Positions 414 to 10,391 of a DNA stretch of 10,537 nucleotides are shown one piece after another. The stretch covers positions 1 to 10,537 of the forward strand of contig JAFUCW010000106.1 in assembly GCA_017459485.1 (NCBI GenBank), given 5' to 3'. How positions within the stretch are numbered: the stretch's first letter is position 1; every line of letters starts with the position of its first letter. Made by a program: the position numbers and the translations under genes. The stretch comes from Eggerthellaceae bacterium. GTDB lineage: Bacteria > Actinomycetota > Coriobacteriia > Coriobacteriales > Eggerthellaceae. Under the pieces are notes generated by a model. It ran no database searches. It was not told where the DNA came from and saw nothing but the letters and a program-made list of their open reading frames with translations.

Positions 414-432
414 AAATGTGTACATATTTTCC
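414..432 (+). promoter_or_regulatory. Left operator box of the HEAT-gene promoter
   Basis: AAATGTGTACATATTTTCC. The TGTACA core (419-424) lies in a partly palindromic AT-rich box. It is the exact reverse complement of 472-490 (19 of 19 bases). It overlaps the place where a -35 would sit for the TACAAT -10 at 453-458. The same type of box occurs twice at the aconitase promoter. The binding protein is unknown. Confidence 0.7.
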
Positions 433-458
433 TCATGTCAACCATAAATGAATACAAT
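430..458 (+). promoter_or_regulatory. Candidate promoter of the HEAT-repeat gene
   Basis: TACAAT at 453-458 matches the -10 consensus at 5 of 6 positions. With a 17-bp spacer the -35 would be TCCTCA at 430-435, a weak match that overlaps the left operator box, so an activator or a weak basal promoter is possible. The start of transcription would be near 465, leaving the right box in the leader. A second TATAAT at 563-568 without a clear -35 is an alternative. Confidence 0.4.
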
Positions 459-471
459 ACATAGCATCATT

Positions 472-490
472 GGAAAATATGTACACATTT
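472..490 (-). promoter_or_regulatory. Right operator box of the HEAT-gene promoter
   Basis: GGAAAATATGTACACATTT, the perfect inverted copy of 414-432. Its TGTACA core (480-485) is centred 61 bp from that of the left box. It lies just downstream of the predicted transcription start, a position suited to a roadblock or to loop-type repression with the left box. Confidence 0.7.
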
Positions 491-630
491 ATCCCTCAAA
501 TCCGCTTCTGGACTTCTTGTTTGCTTGAGGGTTTTGTCTAAGGGGGTGCGATTGCCCTTGCGTATAATTCTGATGGACTTACATGCCCTTTTTGATAGGG
601 CGAAGCTATTTTCGTGCAGAGGAGCGCAAC

Positions 631-1245
631 GTGGCAGAGAAGCAATTGACGATAGACGAACTCTACGACGGCGCAATGCGTCGCAAGAAGGACCTTGCGA
701 AGCTGACCGATAACCTTTCGGGCGCATCCCGCCGCGACCGCCAGCAGGCCGCCAAGGTGCTTGCCATGGTCGCGAAGGCGGATCCCAAACGTGCTGCTAT
801 GGTGATTGATTCGCTTGTTGATGCCCTGAACAGGCCGGAAGCTCAAACGCGGTGGGAGTGCCTGGATGCGCTCACCGAATGCGTGGCCGTTGACACGCGC
901 GGATGCGAAAAGGCGATCCCAGGGGCGGATGCCTCCTTGTTCGACGAAGAAAACGGCCCGGTGCGCCTTGCAGCCATGCGGTTCCTGTGCGCAATCGGTG
1001 CAACGACGGCGAACCGCTCCGACAAGGTATGGCCGCTTGTTGATGAAGCGATTCAGTGCTATCACGGGGACCTTGAGTTCCAGGACATGCTTATCGCGGT
1101 CATCGGGTTTTCGGAGGGTACCCTGTCGGCGAACGTGAAAAAAGAACTGCGCAATCGTATGGCTTTCGACGCAGCCAACGGCAAGGGCGTGCTGAAAAAG
1201 CGCGCCGAGCAAATCGTGAAGAATACGCGCAAGAAGTCCAAGTAA
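631..1245 (+). CDS. HEAT/ARM-like helical repeat protein
   Basis: A 204-residue, probably cytoplasmic protein with no signal peptide or membrane segment. I chose GTG 631 because GAGGAG at 619-624 sits 6 bases upstream; an ATG at 583 in the same frame has no ribosome binding site and would add non-conserved-looking residues. After a basic N-terminal helix (about residues 14-36), pairs of amphipathic helices follow in HEAT style, for example the stretch around RDRQQAAKVLAMVAK, then AAMVIDSLVDALN, RWECLDALTECV, VRLAAMRFLCAIGA and VWPLVDEAIQCYH. The C-terminus is Lys-rich (KKRAEQIVKNTRKKSK). HEAT-repeat proteins are usually scaffolds that bind protein or nucleic acid; no catalytic motif is visible. 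It is a single-gene unit whose promoter shares a paired operator with the aconitase gene downstream. Its specific role is unknown; the fold is an inference from helix pattern. Confidence 0.7.
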   Translation: MAEKQLTIDELYDGAMRRKKDLAKLTDNLSGASRRDRQQAAKVLAMVAKADPKRAAMVIDSLVDALNRPEAQTRWECLDALTECVAVDTRGCEKAIPGADASLFDEENGPVRLAAMRFLCAIGATTANRSDKVWPLVDEAIQCYHGDLEFQDMLIAVIGFSEGTLSANVKKELRNRMAFDAANGKGVLKKRAEQIVKNTRKKSK

Positions 1246-1292
1246 AAGCTGGGCGCTACGTTCGGGCTGTCGCAATCTTGGGGAATGGGCAT

Positions 1293-1321
1293 GTCGAAAA
1301 GGTGCGGTTTTCGGCGTTTTT
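1293..1321 (+). terminator. Probable intrinsic terminator of the HEAT-repeat gene
   Basis: GTCGAAAA (1293-1300) pairs with TTTTCGGC (1308-1315) around a 7-base loop, with one G-T wobble, and five T residues follow at 1317-1321. The stem is AT-rich, so it may be weak. A second, GC-rich hairpin (AGGCC/GGCCT and GCTC/GAGC, 1328-1349) lies directly behind it but lacks a T-tract; the two may act together. Confidence 0.45.
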
Positions 1322-1349
1322 GCCTTGAGGCCTGCTCGCCGAGCGGCCT

Positions 1350-1500
1350 TCTCTCCGTGCGGCGCGACCTTGGTGCTGCGCCTCTGTTTGCAGTAGGGGA
1401 CCGGAGGGTCTTGCTGCTTCGCGTTCGACGCCGGCTCCGTTCCTGGCATTGTGCCGACTTGCGTGCATGTGACCGACTGCGTACGCCCTGCATCCGTATA
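1350..1500. other. Non-coding intergenic stretch
   Basis: About 150 bases (part of a 350-base gap between the HEAT gene and aconitase) in which I see no credible gene. The open frames here have no ribosome binding site and no recognisable protein character. No tRNA fold or repeat is evident. It ends at the operator pair of the aconitase promoter. Confidence 0.5.
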
Positions 1501-1501
1501 G

Positions 1502-1518
1502 AATGTGTACATTTTTCT
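1502..1518 (+). promoter_or_regulatory. Left operator box of the aconitase promoter
   Basis: AATGTGTACATTTTTCT, exact reverse complement of 1560-1576 (17 of 17). It shares AATGTGTACAT and the following T-rich flank with the box at 414-432. Core TGTACA at 1506-1511. It ends directly before the TTGCTG -35 (1519-1524). Confidence 0.72.
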
Positions 1519-1548
1519 TTGCTGAACAAGATAAGTGTTGTATATAAG
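1519..1548 (+). promoter_or_regulatory. Candidate aconitase promoter
   Basis: TTGCTG (1519-1524) and TATAAG (1543-1548) with an 18-bp spacer; TATATA at 1541-1546 with a 16-bp spacer is an overlapping alternative. Predicted start of transcription is near 1555, immediately before the right operator box. The -10 sits 37 and 24 bp from the two box centres, nearly the same geometry as at the HEAT gene (34 and 27 bp). Confidence 0.55.
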
Positions 1549-1559
1549 TATCAACTACG

Positions 1560-1576
1560 AGAAAAATGTACACATT
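1560..1576 (-). promoter_or_regulatory. Right operator box of the aconitase promoter
   Basis: AGAAAAATGTACACATT, the inverted copy of 1502-1518, with core TGTACA at 1567-1572. Centre-to-centre distance to the left box is 61 bp, as in the HEAT-gene pair. The box lies in the predicted leader, 9 bases before the Shine-Dalgarno sequence, and contains an ATG (1566) that creates a spurious upstream start in the aconitase frame. Confidence 0.72.
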
Positions 1577-1595: not shown

Positions 1596-4295
1596 ATGAG
1601 CGAAATCAAGACAGCGGCACTGTCCGCAGGTGGTGTCGACTTCGTATACTACCCGATCTCTCAGGTGGAAGGCTCCGACGCGCTGCCGTACGCTTTGCGC
1701 GTAGTGCTGGAGAACATCCTGCGCAATGCCGAAAACGCCGATGTTGCCCAAGAGGCTGCGCGAAGACTGATGGATGCGGCACGGTCCGGTCAGGCGGGCG
1801 AAGAGATCGAGTTCTCACCCGCCCGGGTGCTGTTCCAGGACTTCACGGGCGTGCCGGTGTTCGTCGACTTCGCAACTATGAGGGAGGCGTGCGCAGACCT
1901 TGGTGGAGACGCGTCGATGATCAACCCGCTTGTTGCATGCGACCTGGTAGTGGACCATTCCGTGATCGCCGACGTGGCAGGATGCGCCGATGCGCTCGAG
2001 CGCAACATGGAGCTGGAGTTTTCCCGCAACCGCGAACGTTACGACTTCTTGAAGTGGTCGCAGACCTCCTTCGACAACGTGTCCAGTGTTCCGCCTGGTC
2101 AGGGCATATGCCATCAGGTGAATGTGGAGGCTATAAGTTCCGTCGTTCTGTCGAACGGCGGAAGTGCCGACGCTGCGGGGGGCGCGCTTGGGGATGGTTC
2201 CGCGTCAGCTGCTACGCTTGCGTACTTCGATACGGTGGTGGGGACGGATTCGCATACTCCTACGGCCAACGGGCTTGGCGTGCTCGGATGGGGCGTGGGC
2301 GGCATCGAAGCCGAAGCGGCCGCACTTGGGCAACCCATTCCGTTGCTCGTTCCGCGTGTCCTGGGCGTGGAGCTTACGGGCGAGATGGCAGAGGGCGTGT
2401 CTGCCATGGACGTGGCATTGACGTTCGCGGAAATGCTGCGCGCAGAAGGCGTAGTCGGCTGCTTCGTCGAATGCTTCGGCGAAGGCGTGGGCAACCTGAG
2501 CTCCACGCAGCGCGCCTGCATCGCCAACATGACGCCCGAGTACGGTTCTACCTGCACGCTGTTTCCTGTAGACGAGCGCACGCTTGACTACCTTCAGACG
2601 ACGGGACGTTCTCAGCAGCAGGTGGCGCTGGTGGAGGCCTACGCGAAGGCGCAGGGTATGTGGGCTGGTGCCGGCGCATCGGCGGCTCCGCGCGCGTACG
2701 CGAAGGTCCTGCACCTGGACCTAGGAAGCGTCAAGCGCAGCATTGCGGGGCCGTCGCGTCCGCATGACCGCTTCGACTTCGCGCAGTCGGCAACACGTTT
2801 CCGCGAAATCTGCGCCGATCGCGGCCTTGCTGGCGAAAACGCCGTCGAAGTGGAGGTTGGAGGCCAGGCGCAAAGGCTCGTTGACGGCGCGGTGGCAATT
2901 GCTGCTATCACTAGCTGCACAACTGCCACCGACCCTGCCATGATGGTCGCAGCAGGCTTGTTGGCGCGTAATGCCGCGCAGCGCGGGCTTGCATCCGCGC
3001 CTTGGGTAAAGACCATCTTCGCTCCCGGATCGCGTGCCACCGAGCTGCTCCTTGAGCGCGCTGGCTTGCTCGATGGCCTGCGCCAACTGGGCTTTTTCAC
3101 GTGCGGGTTCGGGTGCATGAGCTGCATCGGCAACTCGGGCCCTCTCTCTGCGCCCATGCACGAAGCTGCCGACAAGGTGGAGCTTGCGGCGGTGCTGTCG
3201 GGCAATCGCAACTTCGAGGGCCGCATATCTCCTGACGTGGCGCAAAACTACCTTATGCCGCCGGCGCTCGTGGTGGCCTATGCGCTTGCAGGCTTCATGG
3301 ACTACGACTTTGCCGAAGAACCTGTCGGGGTCTCTGCAGATGGCGAAGACGTGTTCCTGGCGGATCTTTGGCCAACCAATGCAGAGATCGCGCGCGTTCT
3401 GGACCAGGCGGTCGACGAGTCGCTCTACGCGCAAGGCTCCGCCCACTTGCTCGAAGGAGACGAAGCATGGAAGGCGCTTGGGCGGCAGGCATCGTCAACG
3501 TTTGCATGGGACGAAGCGTCCACTTACGTGCGCCGCGCCCCCTACTTCGACGACATGGGGCAACTGCTCGAAGAACCGTGTGCCATCGAAGGTGCGCGCG
3601 TGCTGGCTTACCTGGGCGATTTCATCACCACCGACCATATTTCCCCGGCAGGATCGATCGCCCTCGACTCCGCCGCCGCTGCGTACCTGCGCGACCACGG
3701 GGTGGAAGAGGCCGATTTCAACACCTACGGCGCGCGCCGCGGCAACCACGAGGTCATGATGCGCGGCACTTTTGCCAACGTGAAGCTGGAAAACAAGCTG
3801 GCCGAAGGGCGCAGGGGAGGCTGGACGCGCGACATGATCGACGGCCAGGTGAAGCTGATCTTCGACGCGTCGGAGCACTACGCTGCCGAAGGTGTTCCCA
3901 GCGTCGTGCTGGCGGGCAAGATGTATGGTTCAGGAAGTTCCCGCGACTGGGCGGCGAAGGGTCCAGTGCTTCTGGGCGTGCGCGCCGCGTTTGCGGAAAG
4001 CTTCGAGCGCATCCACCGCTCCAACCTGATAGGCATGGGCGTGCTGCCCTTGCAGTTCGCAGAAGGGCAGAGCGCAGAAAGCCTTGGCCTGGATGGCACT
4101 GAATCGTTCGACATTCCCATGCCCGACTTTGCTGGCCCTTGGCCACAGCAGGTGCAGGTGCGCGCCACCCGCGAAGATGGTAGTGTGCGTGCGTTCGAGG
4201 CGACAGTGCGCATCGACACGCCCACCGAAGCGGCGTACTACCGCAACGGCGGCATCCTGCAGTACGTGCTGCGCAAGTGCATCCGCAACGCATAA
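1596..4295 (+). CDS. acnA: Aconitate hydratase, AcnA/IRP1 type
   Basis: An 899-residue cytoplasmic [4Fe-4S] enzyme that interconverts citrate and isocitrate through cis-aconitate (EC 4.2.1.3), feeding isocitrate and 2-oxoglutarate/glutamate synthesis. ATG 1596 is chosen because AAGGAG (1585-1590) lies 5 bases upstream; the in-frame ATG at 1566 is inside an operator box and has no ribosome binding site. Cluster ligands are Cys441 (SCTTATDP) and Cys507/Cys510 (GCMSCIGNSGPL); the 66-residue spacing equals that of animal IRP1 as I remember it. Other family motifs: QDFTGVPVFVDF, PGQGICHQVN, GTDSHTPTANGLG (about 216-228), TTDHISPAG (Asp680-His681) and YGSGSSRDWAAKGP (777-790) in the swivelling C-terminal domain. 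Length is normal. Odd: a Gly/Ser/Ala-rich insertion (about 188-207) between PGQGICHQVN and GTDSHT. It is a single-gene unit with its own promoter, a paired operator and a strong terminator. Confidence 0.97.
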   Translation: MSEIKTAALSAGGVDFVYYPISQVEGSDALPYALRVVLENILRNAENADVAQEAARRLMDAARSGQAGEEIEFSPARVLFQDFTGVPVFVDFATMREACADLGGDASMINPLVACDLVVDHSVIADVAGCADALERNMELEFSRNRERYDFLKWSQTSFDNVSSVPPGQGICHQVNVEAISSVVLSNGGSADAAGGALGDGSASAATLAYFDTVVGTDSHTPTANGLGVLGWGVGGIEAEAAALGQPIPLLVPRVLGVELTGEMAEGVSAMDVALTFAEMLRAEGVVGCFVECFGEGVGNLSSTQRACIANMTPEYGSTCTLFPVDERTLDYLQTTGRSQQQVALVEAYAKAQGMWAGAGASAAPRAYAKVLHLDLGSVKRSIAGPSRPHDRFDFAQSATRFREICADRGLAGENAVEVEVGGQAQRLVDGAVAIAAITSCTTATDPAMMVAAGLLARNAAQRGLASAPWVKTIFAPGSRATELLLERAGLLDGLRQLGFFTCGFGCMSCIGNSGPLSAPMHEAADKVELAAVLSGNRNFEGRISPDVAQNYLMPPALVVAYALAGFMDYDFAEEPVGVSADGEDVFLADLWPTNAEIARVLDQAVDESLYAQGSAHLLEGDEAWKALGRQASSTFAWDEASTYVRRAPYFDDMGQLLEEPCAIEGARVLAYLGDFITTDHISPAGSIALDSAAAAYLRDHGVEEADFNTYGARRGNHEVMMRGTFANVKLENKLAEGRRGGWTRDMIDGQVKLIFDASEHYAAEGVPSVVLAGKMYGSGSSRDWAAKGPVLLGVRAAFAESFERIHRSNLIGMGVLPLQFAEGQSAESLGLDGTESFDIPMPDFAGPWPQQVQVRATREDGSVRAFEATVRIDTPTEAAYYRNGGILQYVLRKCIRNA

Positions 4296-4386: not shown

Positions 4387-4486
4387 CTGTCATTCTGAGC
4401 GTAGCGAAGGATTTTCCGGATGCGCTAAAGGGGCAAGGCAGGTTCTTGCGCACCAAAGGGCGGGGTTCGACTCGTCTACGGCAAGC
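4387..4486. repeat. REP-like intergenic repeat
   Basis: Begins with CTGTCATTCTGAGCGTAGCG, very close to a short repeat (GTCATTCTGAGCGAAGCGAAG) that I remember as dispersed in intergenic DNA of many bacterial phyla. A short arm pair TGCGC (4421-4425)/GCGCA (4448-4452) and a GGGTTCGACTCGTCTACGG-like tract follow. The right end abuts the broken end of a rhomboid gene on the minus strand, so it may have inserted there or grown there after the gene decayed. No protein frame is credible here. Boundaries are approximate. Confidence 0.5.
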
Positions 4487-4832: not shown

Positions 4833-5147
4833 TCATACTACGATTTTCGTCAGGTCGCGCGAACCGTACGCGAAGCGGCGAACTTCCATTACGTCGTTAT
4901 CCACCACGTAGAGCACCATGTAGTTGCCTACGGGAAACCAGTAGTAGGGGAGGCGTCGGCTCCTTGTCGTTTTGTATATTGCAGCATTGGTGGGGTTTTC
5001 AAGGTGCTCGAGGATTCCCTGTTCCACTTGGTCTGCCAGGCGCTGAGCGGCAAGGGGGTTTTCAAGCACATCGCGAATGTAGAGCAGCGCTTGTAGCAGG
5101 TCGTCCCAAAAGATTGGGAGGTACTGGAGCCTATACCGCTTCGGCAT
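4833..5147 (-). CDS. ParE/RelE-superfamily toxin of a type II toxin-antitoxin pair
   Basis: A 104-residue basic protein. The N-terminal two-helix region (IFWDDLLQALLYIRDVLENP) and the C-terminal strand set (YWFPVGNYMVLYVVDNDVMEVRRFAYGSRDL) match ParE_toxin/RelE architecture, ending in the usual YGxRDL motif. RelE-type members cleave mRNA at the ribosome, ParE-type members poison gyrase; sequence inspection does not decide between them. Its ATG (5147-5145) overlaps the end of the antitoxin gene by 17 bases, with AGGAA as ribosome binding site inside that gene, so the two are translationally coupled. The order is antitoxin first, toxin second, as is normal. No frame damage is seen, so it is presumably active. 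Confidence 0.88.
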   Translation of the reverse strand: MPKRYRLQYLPIFWDDLLQALLYIRDVLENPLAAQRLADQVEQGILEHLENPTNAAIYKTTRSRRLPYYWFPVGNYMVLYVVDNDVMEVRRFAYGSRDLTKIVV

Positions 5148-5403
5148 GGCCTGTTCCTAGCGTTTTGCGGAGGGAGTCGAAGACCTCTTCGTGTGTGTAG
5201 AGCACGTTTGTGGTGGCGGCTTGCGCGTCGGCCACGTCGAGCAGGCTTTCGACGCTGCCGTTCAAGTGCTCGAATTGTTCGATGCTCATGACGACCATGG
5301 AGCCATAACCGTTCTTGGTAAGGAAGACCGGTCCTTCGTTTTGCACGCAGTCTTCGATTTCGGAATAATGGTTCCTCAGATCAGAAACTGGTCTAATGTT
5401 CAT
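5131..5403 (-). CDS. Phd/YefM-family antitoxin
   Basis: A 90-residue protein with the Phd/YefM N-terminal fold: MNIRPVSDLRNHYSEIEDCV, then PVFLTKNGYGSMVVMSIEQFEHL, the family pattern IRPVSDLRN...G.PVFLTKNG...V.S.E..E. This part dimerises and binds operator DNA. The C-terminal part (about 50-90) should wrap and neutralise the toxin. The start ATG (5403-5401) has AGGAGA a few bases upstream. It overlaps the downstream toxin gene by 17 bases. Transcription is probably autorepressed through the 11-bp direct repeats immediately upstream. Confidence 0.9.
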   Translation of the reverse strand: MNIRPVSDLRNHYSEIEDCVQNEGPVFLTKNGYGSMVVMSIEQFEHLNGSVESLLDVADAQAATTNVLYTHEEVFDSLRKTLGTGHAEAV

Positions 5404-5640: not shown

Positions 5641-7785
5641 ATGGACAGAAAGCAAATGGAAGAGTTTTTCAAGGCCGTGGGCTTCGTGCCCCCCGAGGAC
5701 GGGGAAGAGCGCGCAAGCGGCCCGACGGCGAGCAGCGAAGGCGGTACGGGCAGTAGCGGAAACGGTGGTGGCGCCACCGTGGGCTCCGACCCCGACGGCT
5801 GGACCGTCATCGGCGGCGGCAAGAGGCGCGGGCGCAAAGGCGGCTCGGGCGGGTCGGGAGGCTCGGGGGGGTCCAACGGGGGATCGGGCGGAGGCAGCGG
5901 GATTGTCGATTTCTTCATGAACCGCCTTCCCAGCTGGAGCAAGAAGGCGCTCATCTTCCTTGCCATTGTGGTGGTCCTTGTGCTCCTGTTCCTGTACTGG
6001 TGGTTCCATCCGCCGATCAACATTCATTCGCAGGACACGTGGAGCTTCATCCTAATATTCATCCTGCTTCCTACCTTCTTGATCTTGCATGGGCGCCGTC
6101 GCGCCTACGAGACGGGCGGAGGCAAGCGCGAGGCAAGCCCGAAAAAGGCGAAGACGTTCAGGTTCCTTTCCTATATTCCGCTTGCGCTTGCGGTGCTTGG
6201 GCTGATAGGCGCCGTTGCCGGCTGGAGCTTCTGGCCCGGCAACGCGGAGCGCTACTCCAACTTGCTCAAGATCGAAAACACCGACTTCGCTACCGACATC
6301 CAGGAAGTGGACTACAACTCCATCCCGGTCATCGACGGCGCGTCGGCGCAGATTCTGGGCAACCGCACCTTGGGCGAGATTCCCGAATACGTCTCGCAGT
6401 TCGAAATCTCCAGCCTGTATTCCCAGATCAACTACCAGCAGCGCCCGGTGCGCGTGAGTCCGCTTAACTACGCGGACTTCTTCAAGTGGTTCTACAACAT
6501 GGACACGGGCATTCCTGCCTACGTGCTGGTGGACATGGCAAGCCAGGACACGCGCGTCGTGCGCCTTGACCAGCCCATCTACTATTCCGAGTCCGACCCG
6601 TTCTTCAAGAACATCGACCGCCACGTGCAGCTTTCCTATCCGTTCTACATGTTCGAGCAGAAAAGCTTCGAAATCGACGAAGACGGCACGCCGTGGTGGA
6701 TTTGCCCGGTGCAGACGCGCACCATCGGCCTGTTCGGCGGCGAGACCATCAAACGCGTGGTGCTGGTGAACGCGAATTCGGGCGAGACGTTCGACTACGC
6801 CATTGAAGACGTGCCCCAATGGGTCGACCGCGCCTATCCTTCCGACTTGCTCATCCAGCAGTACAACTGGTTCGGCAGCCTCAACGGCGGTTGGCTGAAC
6901 AGCTGGCTTGGTCAGTCGGGTGTGGTCCAGACCACGCCGGGCACGAGCGGCTTTTTGGGATACAACTACATTGCCAAGGACGATGACGTGTGGCTCTACA
7001 CGGGCGTGACTTCCGCAACAGCGGACAATGCCATCGTCGGGTTTGTGCTGGTGAACCAGCGCACGGCAGATGCGCACTACTATGCCATCGCGGGCGCCAC
7101 TGAAGAGTCGGCGATGCGATCGGCGGAAGGCCAGGTGCAGAACCTGCGCTACGAGGCTACGTTCCCGCTGCTGCTCAACATTAACGGGCAGCCGACCTAC
7201 TTCATGGCCCTCAAGGACGGTGCCGGTCTGGCGAAGAAGTTCGCGATGATAGACATCCAGCGCTACCAGAACGTGGCCGTGGGCGACACGGTGGCAGAAT
7301 GCCAAAAGAGCTACAAGGCACTGTTGGCGACCAACGGCATTTCGTCTGGCGGTTCTGCCGATGCGGGGACGCTGACGGCGAAGGGCGAGATCGCGTCCAT
7401 CGCGCAAGCGGTCATCGACGGCAATTCGCATTTCTACCTGACGCTCGACGGAGACGGCAATATCTACGACTGCCCGCTTCCGGCGTTGATTGAAGTGGTG
7501 GGCTTCTCCGTGGGCGACACGGTCGAGCTGGGCTATTTCGAATCCGAGCCGACCTGCACGGTATCGGAGATCTCCGGCACGACGGCATCCGGTGCGAAGG
7601 TGGATTCGACCGCCACGCCCCAAGCGGCAAGTACCTCTGGGGATGCGGCCGGCGGCATGGCCGGTGTGGACGCGGCTGCAGACGGCGTGGTCGGCGCAGG
7701 CGCGGCGGGTGCAGGTGCGATCGGCGCAGGCACGGCGGAGTCTGCCGACGCGCTTGCCGGTCAGGCGGTGTCGAGCGCTGCATGA
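5641..7785 (+). CDS. Large membrane-anchored protein of unknown function with Gly-rich cytoplasmic tail
   Basis: 714 residues from ATG 5641, preceded only by a weak GGCGGA (5629-5634). Residues 1-35 are acidic and charged; about 35-92 are Gly/Ser-rich with a basic KRRGRK patch and repeated GGS units. Three membrane segments follow (about 103-120, 134-150, 176-197). The segment between the second and third is basic (RRR, KREASPKKAK), so it is probably cytoplasmic, placing residues after about 198 outside. The external part is a large soluble domain rich in Tyr, Trp and Phe (for example YYSESDPFFKNIDRHVQLSY, WWICPVQTRTIGLFGG, QGVVQTT-like turns, FPLLLNINGQPTYFMALKDGAG), then a small beta-rich domain (about 575-642) and an Ala/Gly-rich tail repeating GAGAAGAGAIGAG. 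No catalytic motif is recognised. I recall similar uncharacterised proteins in Firmicutes and Coriobacteria, but cannot name a family. Possible roles are envelope sensing or surface-layer support; this is inference only. Confidence 0.85.
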   Translation: MDRKQMEEFFKAVGFVPPEDGEERASGPTASSEGGTGSSGNGGGATVGSDPDGWTVIGGGKRRGRKGGSGGSGGSGGSNGGSGGGSGIVDFFMNRLPSWSKKALIFLAIVVVLVLLFLYWWFHPPINIHSQDTWSFILIFILLPTFLILHGRRRAYETGGGKREASPKKAKTFRFLSYIPLALAVLGLIGAVAGWSFWPGNAERYSNLLKIENTDFATDIQEVDYNSIPVIDGASAQILGNRTLGEIPEYVSQFEISSLYSQINYQQRPVRVSPLNYADFFKWFYNMDTGIPAYVLVDMASQDTRVVRLDQPIYYSESDPFFKNIDRHVQLSYPFYMFEQKSFEIDEDGTPWWICPVQTRTIGLFGGETIKRVVLVNANSGETFDYAIEDVPQWVDRAYPSDLLIQQYNWFGSLNGGWLNSWLGQSGVVQTTPGTSGFLGYNYIAKDDDVWLYTGVTSATADNAIVGFVLVNQRTADAHYYAIAGATEESAMRSAEGQVQNLRYEATFPLLLNINGQPTYFMALKDGAGLAKKFAMIDIQRYQNVAVGDTVAECQKSYKALLATNGISSGGSADAGTLTAKGEIASIAQAVIDGNSHFYLTLDGDGNIYDCPLPALIEVVGFSVGDTVELGYFESEPTCTVSEISGTTASGAKVDSTATPQAASTSGDAAGGMAGVDAAADGVVGAGAAGAGAIGAGTAESADALAGQAVSSAA

Positions 7786-7814
7786 CGCACGAAAAGAAGA
7801 AGGCGGACGGTGCC

Positions 7815-7876
7815 CAGTGATTAGTGACCGGTGACCATTGTTCAATGGCCATTGTTCAGTGTCCAGCGCCCAGCGC
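7815..7876. repeat. Cluster of short direct and palindromic repeats
   Basis: CCATTGTTCA occurs twice (7835-7844, 7849-7858). The pair also forms overlapping palindromes: CCATTG-TT-CAATGG (7835-7848) and CAATGGCCATTG (7843-7854). Around them are near-tandem GTGACC units (7825-7830 region and 7831-7835) and a doubled CCAGCGCC/CAGCGCC. It lies between the membrane-protein stop and the radical SAM start; it could be a decayed microrepeat or a regulatory hairpin. Confidence 0.45.
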
Positions 7877-8827: not shown

Positions 8828-8951
8828 CAGGGCGGATTGAGGGCGCCGCGTAACCCGCTGTAGGACAGGGGTTGGAGGTCTGTCTTGTCTAGGTCCTGCT
8901 GGAGTGTCGGCAAACGAATAGGGTCAAACAAGCCTTCGTCTTGCAAAATGG
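8828..8951. other. Non-coding stretch downstream of the radical SAM gene
   Basis: I see no gene here. No strong T-tailed hairpin follows the radical SAM stop directly; the first candidate terminator is the palindrome at 9002-9028, about 175 bases on. Confidence 0.4.
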
Positions 8952-8980
8952 TATAACCCTTCCTTTAACGGAATGGTTTT
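8952..8980. promoter_or_regulatory. Imperfect upstream copy of the palindromic operator
   Basis: TATAACCCTTCC at 8952-8963 is repeated exactly at 8999-9010, 47 bp downstream. Here the right arm is GGAATGGTT (GGAAGGGTT in the perfect copy), so the arms differ by one base. The arrangement looks like an auxiliary site for the same protein that binds the perfect palindrome. Confidence 0.5.
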
Positions 8981-9001
8981 AATGCACTAAGGAAGTACTA
9001 T

Positions 9002-9028
9002 AACCCTTCCGATATCGGAAGGGTTTTT
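9002..9028. promoter_or_regulatory. Perfect 24-bp palindrome, probable operator and/or terminator
   Basis: AACCCTTCCGAT (9002-9013) is followed by its exact reverse complement (9014-9025), then TTT to 9028. As DNA it is an ideal dimer site, and it covers the -35 position for the TATAAT at 9031-9036. As RNA it is a 10-bp hairpin with a four-base loop followed by five T residues, so it could also terminate transcription from the radical SAM gene. Both functions may coexist. Confidence 0.65.
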
Positions 9029-9036
9029 GCTATAAT
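9007..9036 (+). promoter_or_regulatory. Candidate promoter of the HTH-HipA-like kinase gene
   Basis: A consensus TATAAT at 9031-9036 with a weak -35 TTCCGA (9007-9012, 18-bp spacer) inside the palindrome. Predicted transcript start is near 9043, giving a very short leader that goes straight into AAAGGAG (9045-9051) and the ATG at 9057; the transcript may be nearly leaderless upstream of the Shine-Dalgarno sequence. Confidence 0.5.
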
Positions 9037-9056
9037 GCCCTCAGAAAGGAGAGGGA

Positions 9057-10391
9057 ATGCTGACTACCTCTGAAGCGGCAAAACGCCTTGGCGTGTCTCA
9101 GCGTCGTGTCGTCGGGCTTATCCACGAAGGAGCGCTGGATGCCGAAAAGCGCAGCGGCGTGTGGTTCGTTGACGAAAAGAGCGTACAAACGCGTTTGCGC
9201 ACCGCCAACAGCAAGGGCGGGCGCCCGCCTGTCGGCCGCGGCAGGCACGACGTGACATTCACTCTCATGAACAGGACGCATGAGGTTGTCCAGCTTGTTT
9301 ACAACCGTGCGCGGAAGGAGTTCGTTTCCATTGGCGAAATCTCCGACCACAAGCGGGCGCCTTTGGGGCTTGTGCACAACGGGTCGATGTCGCTTGCAGG
9401 CTTTAACAGCTGGTGGCGTGGGCGCGGCATTCCACAGACCCGCGACAACCTCTCTACGGTTCTTGAACTGGCCCATGCGGAAGTGCCCGAAGAACTGCTC
9501 TACCGCAATCTGGGGCTTTCGCTTTCCGACCAGTATTGGATCTGCCCCGTCGATGCACCCTTGCGGTGGGAAGACATCAACTTCTTCACGAACGGCTTCG
9601 AAACGAGCTCCCGTCTGACAGCGCCCCAGTTTGGCGACAGTGCGCAAGACGCGCATCCCGACAACACGTCGGATGGCAACCTTGCAAAGCATTGGATTGT
9701 CCACGGCAAGAAGCGCATCTTGCAAAAAGGCGGACAGCACAATTCGCAGGAGCCTTACAACGAAGTTGTGGCGACCTCGTTGCACAAGCGCTTGCTCAAA
9801 AGGCGGCAGTACGTTCCGTATTCTTTGGGGAGCCTGAATGGGGAAGTGGTCTGCGAGTGTGCCGACTTCCTTTCCGACGAGGAAGAATACATTCCCGCGC
9901 ATTACGTTCAGAGAATCAAAAGCGCCGAACCGTCACAGTCGGACTATGCGCATTACGTAGCCTGCTGCGAAGAGCTGGGGGTTTATGACATAGAACACGC
10001 TTTGGCCTGCATGATGGTCTGCGACGACGTTATCGCCAATCATGACAGGCATTGGCGCAACTTCGGTATCGTCCGCAACGTCGAAACTCTGGAGTGCCGT
10101 CCTGCGCCCCTGTTCGATTCGGGGTCTTCGCTGTGGTGCAATGTGGATATGAAGACGCTCAAGACGGGCGACGCGGCGTTTCGTTGCAAGCCGTTTGACG
10201 ATAGGCCGTCGCGACAGCTGATGTTGGTGCACGATTTCAGCTGGGCGAACGAAAAAGCGCTCGACGGCTTTGTCGACGAAGCGCTGGAAATCCTCGGTCA
10301 AAACGAATGGATTACCCCACGTCTTCCGTACGTCAAAAAGAACCTCGAACATCGAGTGCATCGCATGCAGCACATATTCGAGTGGGAGTAG
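9057..10391 (+). CDS. Excisionase-type HTH fused to a HipA-like serine/threonine kinase
   Basis: 444 residues; AAAGGAG lies 5 bases before the ATG. Residues 2-48 form an excisionase/MerR-type helix-turn-helix (LTTSEAAKRLGVSQRRVVGLIHEGAL, then a VWFVDEKSVQTRL wing). About 65-130 resembles the HipA-like N-terminal subdomain (LMNRTHEVVQLVYN, FNSWWRGRGIP). The kinase core follows: DNTSDGNLAKHW and ILQKGG (Lys224, likely ATP-contacting), QEPYNEVVATSL, the catalytic loop NHDRHWRNFG (328-337, matching HipA N-x-D-x-H-x-x-N) and PLFDSGSSLW (351-360, the metal-binding Asp). All expected catalytic residues are present, so it should be active. HipA kinases phosphorylate glutamyl-tRNA synthetase in E. coli and cause persistence; related families have other substrates. 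No separate HipB-like gene is adjacent, so the HTH part may replace the antitoxin or repressor. Substrate and role are unproven. Confidence 0.85.
   Translation: MLTTSEAAKRLGVSQRRVVGLIHEGALDAEKRSGVWFVDEKSVQTRLRTANSKGGRPPVGRGRHDVTFTLMNRTHEVVQLVYNRARKEFVSIGEISDHKRAPLGLVHNGSMSLAGFNSWWRGRGIPQTRDNLSTVLELAHAEVPEELLYRNLGLSLSDQYWICPVDAPLRWEDINFFTNGFETSSRLTAPQFGDSAQDAHPDNTSDGNLAKHWIVHGKKRILQKGGQHNSQEPYNEVVATSLHKRLLKRRQYVPYSLGSLNGEVVCECADFLSDEEEYIPAHYVQRIKSAEPSQSDYAHYVACCEELGVYDIEHALACMMVCDDVIANHDRHWRNFGIVRNVETLECRPAPLFDSGSSLWCNVDMKTLKTGDAAFRCKPFDDRPSRQLMLVHDFSWANEKALDGFVDEALEILGQNEWITPRLPYVKKNLEHRVHRMQHIFEWE

Follow-up and report, generated by a model that had tools for sequence, protein, structure and literature searches.

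Two Inverted Box Pairs Beside an Aconitase Gene as Probable Copies of a Dispersed Non-Coding Element in Coriobacteriia

Introduction

In a 10,537-nucleotide contig of an Eggerthellaceae bacterium (JAFUCW010000106.1 of assembly GCA_017459485.1; the whole contig, C6 in our numbering, is referred to here as the window), two intergenic regions each carry a perfect inverted pair of boxes centered on TGTACA. One pair lies in front of a gene that the initial annotation called the HEAT gene, and the other in front of the aconitase gene acnA. The initial annotation read both pairs as operators through which a dedicated regulator controls the two promoters. The locus thus raises the question of what such a pair is for. 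We find that the two pairs are probably not gene switches. The explanation we favor, with some reserve, is that they belong to a family of dispersed, non-coding elements, each about 75 bp long and served by a nuclease-fold partner protein, an arrangement that works like a REPIN-RAYT pair and is not one. The window belongs to an assembly (G000) that is 72% complete and consists of 504 contigs. Genes were called with our own simple codon-usage script, and no published gene finder was used.

Paired Boxes in the Window

The inverted arms at 414-432 and 472-490 (19 nt) and those at 1502-1518 and 1560-1576 (17 nt) are 100% complementary, and TGTACA is found in the window at 419, 480, 1506, and 1567 only, which places the two copies 61 bp apart in both pairs. 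With at most two mismatches, AATGTGTACAT has nine matches where 0.89 are expected, and none of 200 shuffles reaches nine. The perfect pairs first reported are therefore present far above chance, and the statement that the window holds no further TGTACA box was confirmed. The "exactly 61-bp spacing" applies to both pairs here but widens to 60-62 bp across the genome.

Element 1 (415-489, plus strand, 75 bp) is situated between the end of an FctA-domain gene and the HEAT gene. Its left box AATGTGTACATATTTTC (415-431, plus) and a right box of the same sequence (473-489, minus) enclose an inner core, TGAATACAATACATAGCAT (449-467, plus; element positions 35-53), assigned by eye to type A with the aid of a profile of 17 type A elements. 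Element 2 (1502-1576, plus, 75 bp) is found between the HEAT gene and acnA, with left box AATGTGTACATTTTTCT (1502-1518, plus), an identical right box (1560-1576, minus), and an inner core TGTTGTATATAAGTATCA (1536-1553, plus) assigned by eye to type B, of which nine elements are known. All boxes were placed with a profile from 62 boxes, the right boxes also by their inverted arms.

A Dispersed Element in the Genome

A genome scan had been proposed in the initial annotation, and in it the paired motif recurs. The single-box pattern, at no more than two mismatches, gave 58+49 matches in G000 as opposed to 9+6 in a reversed control. Reading 30 further contigs with box matches brought the number of complete pairs to at least 31, both window pairs counted, with several more cut by contig ends. 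These elements measure 74 bp (2), 75 bp (12), or 76 bp (17), and their TGTACA-to-TGTACA spacing is confined to 60 (2 elements), 61 (12), and 62 bp (17). Their 62 boxes yield the profile AAT[G/C]TGTACAT[A/T]TTTT[C/T], and a single unpaired box was seen (L043:7811).

An off-center core separates the boxes and is recognizable in most of these elements. By eye, 22 are of type A, T[GT][AC]A[GT]AC[AT]AT[AT]GTNNTTCATT (profile from 17 elements of 76 bp), and nine of type B, TGTT[AG]C[AT]TATA[AT]G[CT]ATAA; since the elements were oriented by their core for these profiles, core strength is flattered. The spacer, in contrast to the conserved boxes and core, shows a pairwise identity of 30.8%. An inner dyad in the element prompted the thought of tyrosine-recombinase att sites, although no search for such an enzyme was made.

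Two observations concern incomplete elements. On contig C273, half an element is repeated at L043:3134-3201 and 7759-7826 with 88% identity, comprising 51 bp of flank and the left box, and the repeat ends at the inner end of that box. Six contig ends fall inside elements (C152, C183, C284, C319, C353, and C388) where 1.1 would be expected. They could reflect strain variation or poor coverage, and are not taken as evidence because AT content and low coverage may produce them.

A Partner Gene Flanked by Elements

When genes within 400 bp of elements were compared between genomes, a single family, encoding a protein of about 400 amino acids, and no other was found to adjoin elements in two genomes. 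In G000, the gene (contig C450, 6307-7524, minus strand) lies between elements at 6114-6189 and 7580-7655; in G391, a genome of another genus, it lies between elements at 13-81 and 1343-1411 (contig C147, 145-1332). The two proteins are 47% identical, and the family is represented in 41 of 396 genomes of the class at E ≤1e-60. The protein model (predicted local distance difference test score 90.6) resembles the Vsr/I-Bth0305I (EDxHD) endonuclease fold over residues ~197-345 and, more weakly, AbiEi in its N-terminal part. The catalytic residues of EDxHD/Vsr enzymes are E, D, and x-H-D. In a 50-member alignment, E200 and D244 are invariant, N-Y-D stands where x-H-D is expected, and some loci have E or G in place of D257, according to our own residue mapping.

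Searches by sequence gave little. Up to E 0.5, 50 members matched 14 Pfam families in a weak and scattered manner (best 0.024; MGTL in five members, the others in one each), with Y1_Tnp/HUH absent from these matches. NCBIfam and PADLOC gave no match for the three members scanned, and the family profile had no match among PDB sequences up to E 10. A large protein collection contained 170 relatives among 8000 candidates scored; among the 120 matches listed, two carry names (Eggerthellaceae bacterium and Olsenella uli). Searches of the open-access literature in PubMed Central (PMC) listed no description of the family, an absence that is unproven for subscription papers, which mostly lie outside that scope. 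Judging by the model, this appears to be a hitherto undescribed nuclease-like gene to which the elements belong.

The association extends well beyond two genomes. Two homolog searches provided 34 partner-gene loci across the class (7 + 27; not every match yielded a locus), and these were scanned for inverted ends at least 15/17 complementary in elements 65-95 bp long and no more than 450 bp from the gene. A pair was present at 24 of the 34 loci, on both sides at 10, as compared with 3 of 23 distant paralogs (one on both sides; paralog gene ends were estimated) in the same kind of scan. At ≥14/17 and ≤500 bp, and without two loci that had been found through elements, 26 of 32 loci have a pair on at least one side and 15 on both; the ≥14/17 scan places 49 pairs in the flanks against one in 38 kb of gene body. 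Within 500 bp, no pair was found at L180, L199, L207, L211, L213, and L217 (six of 34 loci), and L207 has pairs carrying the box of its relatives farther from the gene. Left and right elements with matching boxes (≥15/20; ~1.5 kb on each side) occur at 20 of 34 loci as opposed to 16 of 1122 cross-locus pairings, some of the latter being species that share a box. The usual arrangement is thus a gene copy enclosed by elements that share one box type, with different copies having different types. No partner-gene copy with the GTGTACAT box was found in G424 or G423.

In g79, the partner gene is syntenic in four species, where it lies beside element arrays. Of seven g79 genomes, six contain 1-3 strict TTACCGGC box pairs each, with none in six other genomes searched and none in the reversed control. 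The pair in G264 is the gene's own array, and those of the other five genomes lie away from the listed homologs. A comparison of loci L228, L229, and L233 (G218, G342) adds a separate observation. G342 has two TTACCGGC elements 12.3 kb apart, and in G218 a single element is found near the place where sequence from the left of one adjoins sequence from the right of the other, a difference that is a rearrangement close to the elements.

A core resembling AACTGGG/GACCTGGG recurs across loci with different boxes. The core NA[ACT]CTG[CG] was found in 39 of 58 hand-picked elements, against a mean of 6 and a maximum of 13 in shuffled interiors; the match that the script marked is out of place in two rows or more. 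Those rows aside, the position of the core is 31-37 for elements of 69-79 bp, 39 for one of 84 bp, 45 for four of 85 bp, and 43-44 for four of 92-95 bp. A Mantel test over 29 loci links box similarity to protein identity (rho 0.33, p 0.0002), as judged from 29 hand-picked boxes that leave out L180, L199, L211, L213, and L217, which lack a clear pair. The proteins of L209 and L215 are 74% identical with boxes alike at just 10/17, and those of G004 and G423, which belong to different genera, are 61% identical with boxes that differ at 1/17. At a syntenic place in g43 (L214, L218, L221, and L222), the flanking DNA is 75-93% identical and the box reads CGCGCACTCGTGCACGG in two species, TAACGGGCAAAATTCGA in a third, and like TAACACGCAGAATTCAG in the fourth, the change affecting both sides together. 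Windowed correlation gave no clear region of the protein that determines specificity.

Related Genomes

The HEAT-acnA gene order is kept in five of five genomes of the same genus. The element is absent from the acnA site in all five and from the HEAT site in four of four, the fifth being unreadable there because its contig starts within the HEAT gene. The gap between the two genes falls to 7 bp in two of these genomes and measures 320 bp in the window by the script's start, or 350 bp to the ATG at 1596. At three further element sites that could be compared with relatives, the gap is shorter in the relative at two (298 vs. 76 and 152 vs. 7) and equal at the third (171 vs. 173).

The distribution of the element is patchy. 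A strict pair was found in none of 59 other genomes in a first search of relatives, one of six genomes of the window's genus carries it, and an element is present in one of three g64 genomes. One relaxed pair pattern returned G000 and G391 only from 396 genomes of the class, and another returned G000, G424, G423, and G391 from 138 genomes of the family. Viral contigs had no match to the strict pair and eight to the single box, none of them paired within 90 bp on each side. A collection of genome contigs had two single matches in unrelated genera, taken as chance, in a search that may omit the window's own or very near records. When samples of G004, G002, and G001 were searched de novo for inverted pairs that recur, nothing comparable appeared. 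G004, a sister species, has its own paired element beside its partner-gene homolog, with no second copy in the stretches examined.

Cognate pairs occur in G391, G423, and G424, three genomes of two other genera. Their box is GTGTACATATTTTC, with outer letters that are A/T-rich and genome-specific, and many of their cores equal or come near GACCTGGGC. Of 18 pairs, 10 are spaced at 61 bp and eight at 71-72 bp, which is one helical turn more. In G424, four copies share 79-89% of positions across the element together with flanks of up to ~41 bp on one side and 76 bp on the other, at loci that otherwise do not align, and two G423 copies are 90% alike across 158 bp. These near-identical copies descend from one ancestor and did not originate as independent sites.

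Alternative Explanations

The strongest rival holds that the partner protein binds the pairs as a chromosome organizer, boundary, or self-marking protein, and that the elements are maintained binding sites which do not move. Boxes and core are conserved around a variable spacer, and the sites are therefore under selection or recently renewed; helical phasing, the location of elements near gene 3' ends, and the synteny of the partner gene in some genera would also suit such a role. Near-identical copies that share short flanks at otherwise unrelated places are difficult to reconcile with it, however, as are the patchiness within g64 and within the window's genus and the elements on both sides of the partner gene. 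We consider this explanation unlikely, although it is the rival that survives best.

A second possibility is the one initially proposed, namely that a dedicated regulator governs acnA and the HEAT gene through elements 1 and 2 as its paired operators. From the end of element 2 to the start of acnA (1596-4295, plus strand; PF00330, PF00694) there are 19 bp, and cooperative binding would fit the spacing and symmetry. The sequence around the HEAT gene (631-1245, plus strand; no Pfam match; GTG start at 631 inferred from relatives) speaks against it. A conserved promoter-like block (509-568, plus strand) was identified by alignment of five genomes, the window's and four same-genus relatives, with TGGACTTCTTGTTT at 509-522 (12 of 14 positions invariant) and an invariant TATAAT at 563-568. 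This block lies downstream of element 1 and outside it, and the suggestion that each pair brackets a promoter was not upheld. Gene context is equally unfavorable. In a sample of 49 elements (31 from G000 and 18 from G391, G423, and G424, with closely related G424 copies counted apart), 15 are in convergent regions, 1 in a divergent region, 24 in tandem regions, and 9 at contig edges, while control gene pairs separated by ≥100 bp on the same contigs are 33 convergent, 31 divergent, and 103 tandem. Elements therefore shun divergent regions (15:1 vs. 33:31 convergent:divergent, Fisher p 0.0016). In G000, the core has the same orientation as the downstream gene in 13 cases and the opposite in 7, so no orientation is fixed. 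The initial annotation had named a lack of conservation upstream of acnA and the HEAT gene as the finding that would speak against its model, and the orthologous sites that could be read lack the element throughout. Operators shared by the two promoters were rejected on gene context and absence in relatives, and the operator model as a whole is very improbable. What endures of the dedicated, cooperative regulator is a likely DNA-binding partner with helically phased, paired recognition, as suggested by the 60-62 and 71-72 bp spacings and the box-flanked cognate gene.

Ordinary miniature inverted-repeat transposable elements (MITEs), belonging to a conventional transposon with a transposase that the incomplete genome lacks, would account for inverted ends and an intergenic, dispersed, and patchy distribution. 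Yet no target-site duplication was found (own flanks are no more alike than permuted ones in 30 of the 31 G000 elements), the ends are much better preserved than the interior, and they match, and vary with, the boxes beside the AbiEi/Vsr-like gene, which leaves MITEs as improbable as operators. DNA or RNA hairpins of the REP or REPIN type are the least credible alternative: the arms could pair as a 17-19 bp stem and own arms are slightly more complementary than cross arms in G000 (14.81/17 vs. 14.55/17, p 0.044), but this difference is small, the interiors show no folding (z relative to single-base shuffles averages -0.29, with 2 of 31 under -2), and no Rfam family reaches its cut-off over 300-1700, where the sole listing, which looks like chance, places a microRNA family on element 1 with E 0.48 and 21 of 100 bits. 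A hairpin or terminator model was rejected, as the arms hardly co-vary.

Proposed Mechanism and Significance

We return to the favored explanation of a dispersed element with a nuclease-fold partner. Its element consists of two inverted 17-bp boxes, 60-62 bp apart, around a separate off-center core, and its partner would be the ~400-residue protein, modeled with a Vsr/EDxHD-like fold and an AbiEi-like N-terminal part, that is encoded on C450 between two further copies. Two protein molecules most likely bind the two boxes of a single element in duplex form and from one helical face; duplex binding is proposed because the arms show hardly any covariation and no folding is seen in the interior. 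The bound protein would then bend the element and place its nuclease part at the core, which is probably the point of DNA processing. Nicking or cutting there could allow elements to be copied to new intergenic sites, with copies persisting at those that tolerate them. We infer binding, cutting, and movement alike; movement is suggested by the dispersed copies, their patchiness, and the shorter gaps in relatives.

A broader proposal, which we regard as evenly balanced, is that a nuclease-fold (AbiEi-like and Vsr/EDxHD-like) protein recognizes two-box sites of 70 to 95 bp as a dimer, flanks its own gene with them, seeds free copies across the genome, and shifts its box specificity together with both flanks while keeping the core. 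Coriobacteriia would then harbor selfish or domesticated DNA of a new class, a REPtron that evolved independently of HUH enzymes. If true, a second and independent solution to the REPIN-RAYT arrangement exists with a non-HUH protein, and repeat spread and host retention become testable questions with such an enzyme. Box and protein co-vary over dozens of loci while the core recurs, which offers a natural data set on changes in DNA-binding specificity. There is also a warning: in these genomes, a paired palindrome in front of a gene is not necessarily an operator.

Other Features

Two palindromes, TATAACCCTTCC-N6-GGAA(G/T)GGTT, occur at 8947-9046 of the window upstream of an HTH_17/HipA_C-like gene (9057-10391) and are possible operators of a HipBA-like module. 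A ParE toxin/Phd-YefM antitoxin gene pair lies at 4833-5403 on the minus strand. A CATTCTGAGCGTAGCGAAGGATTTT-like stretch at 4388-4420 resembles one at ~1768-1800 of L122, in an intergenic region of G391, and looks like another dispersed intergenic repeat. G004 has a dispersed repeat of a different kind, a palindrome around GTGACACCAACGCGTCGTTGCTGTCAC followed by ATTTGGATAAT (L076 ~685, L081 4673, L088 393-460, and L100 3111).

Comparison With Known Systems

AbiEi is an antitoxin and autorepressor that binds repeats 3 bp apart in its promoter. The system described here differs in that a nuclease-like domain is attached to the partner. At the one copy examined, that of G000, the two neighboring genes match PF18072 and PF00209, with no toxin. 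EDxHD homing endonucleases such as I-Bth0305I, and Vsr, appear to resemble the modeled fold of partner residues ~197-345. I-Bth0305I is described in a review as dimerizing on a target of nearly 60 bp (PMC3943268). Unlike in the homing endonucleases, the partner gene is outside any intron or split target, and whole elements both flank the gene and are dispersed; judging by its sequence, the partner's active-site motif is also altered relative to EDxHD/Vsr enzymes.

The closest parallel is the REPIN-RAYT system, also named TnpA-REP or REPtron. A GTAG tag is the hallmark of repetitive extragenic palindromic (REP) sequences, and GTAG is absent from the box profile here, with little sign of hairpin selection. 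The partner protein differs from RAYTs in that no Y1/HUH domain is among the matches of 50 members to Pfam up to E 0.5, its model resembling Vsr/EDxHD instead, and the elements have a separate inner core that is common to lineages with differing boxes. By the tests that define a REPtron, the present system is not one, as it has no HUH protein, no tagged palindrome, and little hairpin signal. The likenesses are nonetheless extensive. According to two reports, REPINs are inverted doublets of a conserved 16-mer, dispersed in extragenic regions, with a variable spacer and a preferred spacing that is 71 bp for the GI group of SBW25, the gene beside the repeats is mostly single-copy, and repeat and protein co-evolve (PMC3116915, PMC8266576); tnpA-REP genes are reported to stay in place often (PMC8266576). 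The elements presented here are likewise inverted doublets with a preferred spacing and a variable spacer, found throughout extragenic space, and their partner gene is mostly single-copy, is accompanied by repeats, often stays in place, and has boxes and protein that vary together.
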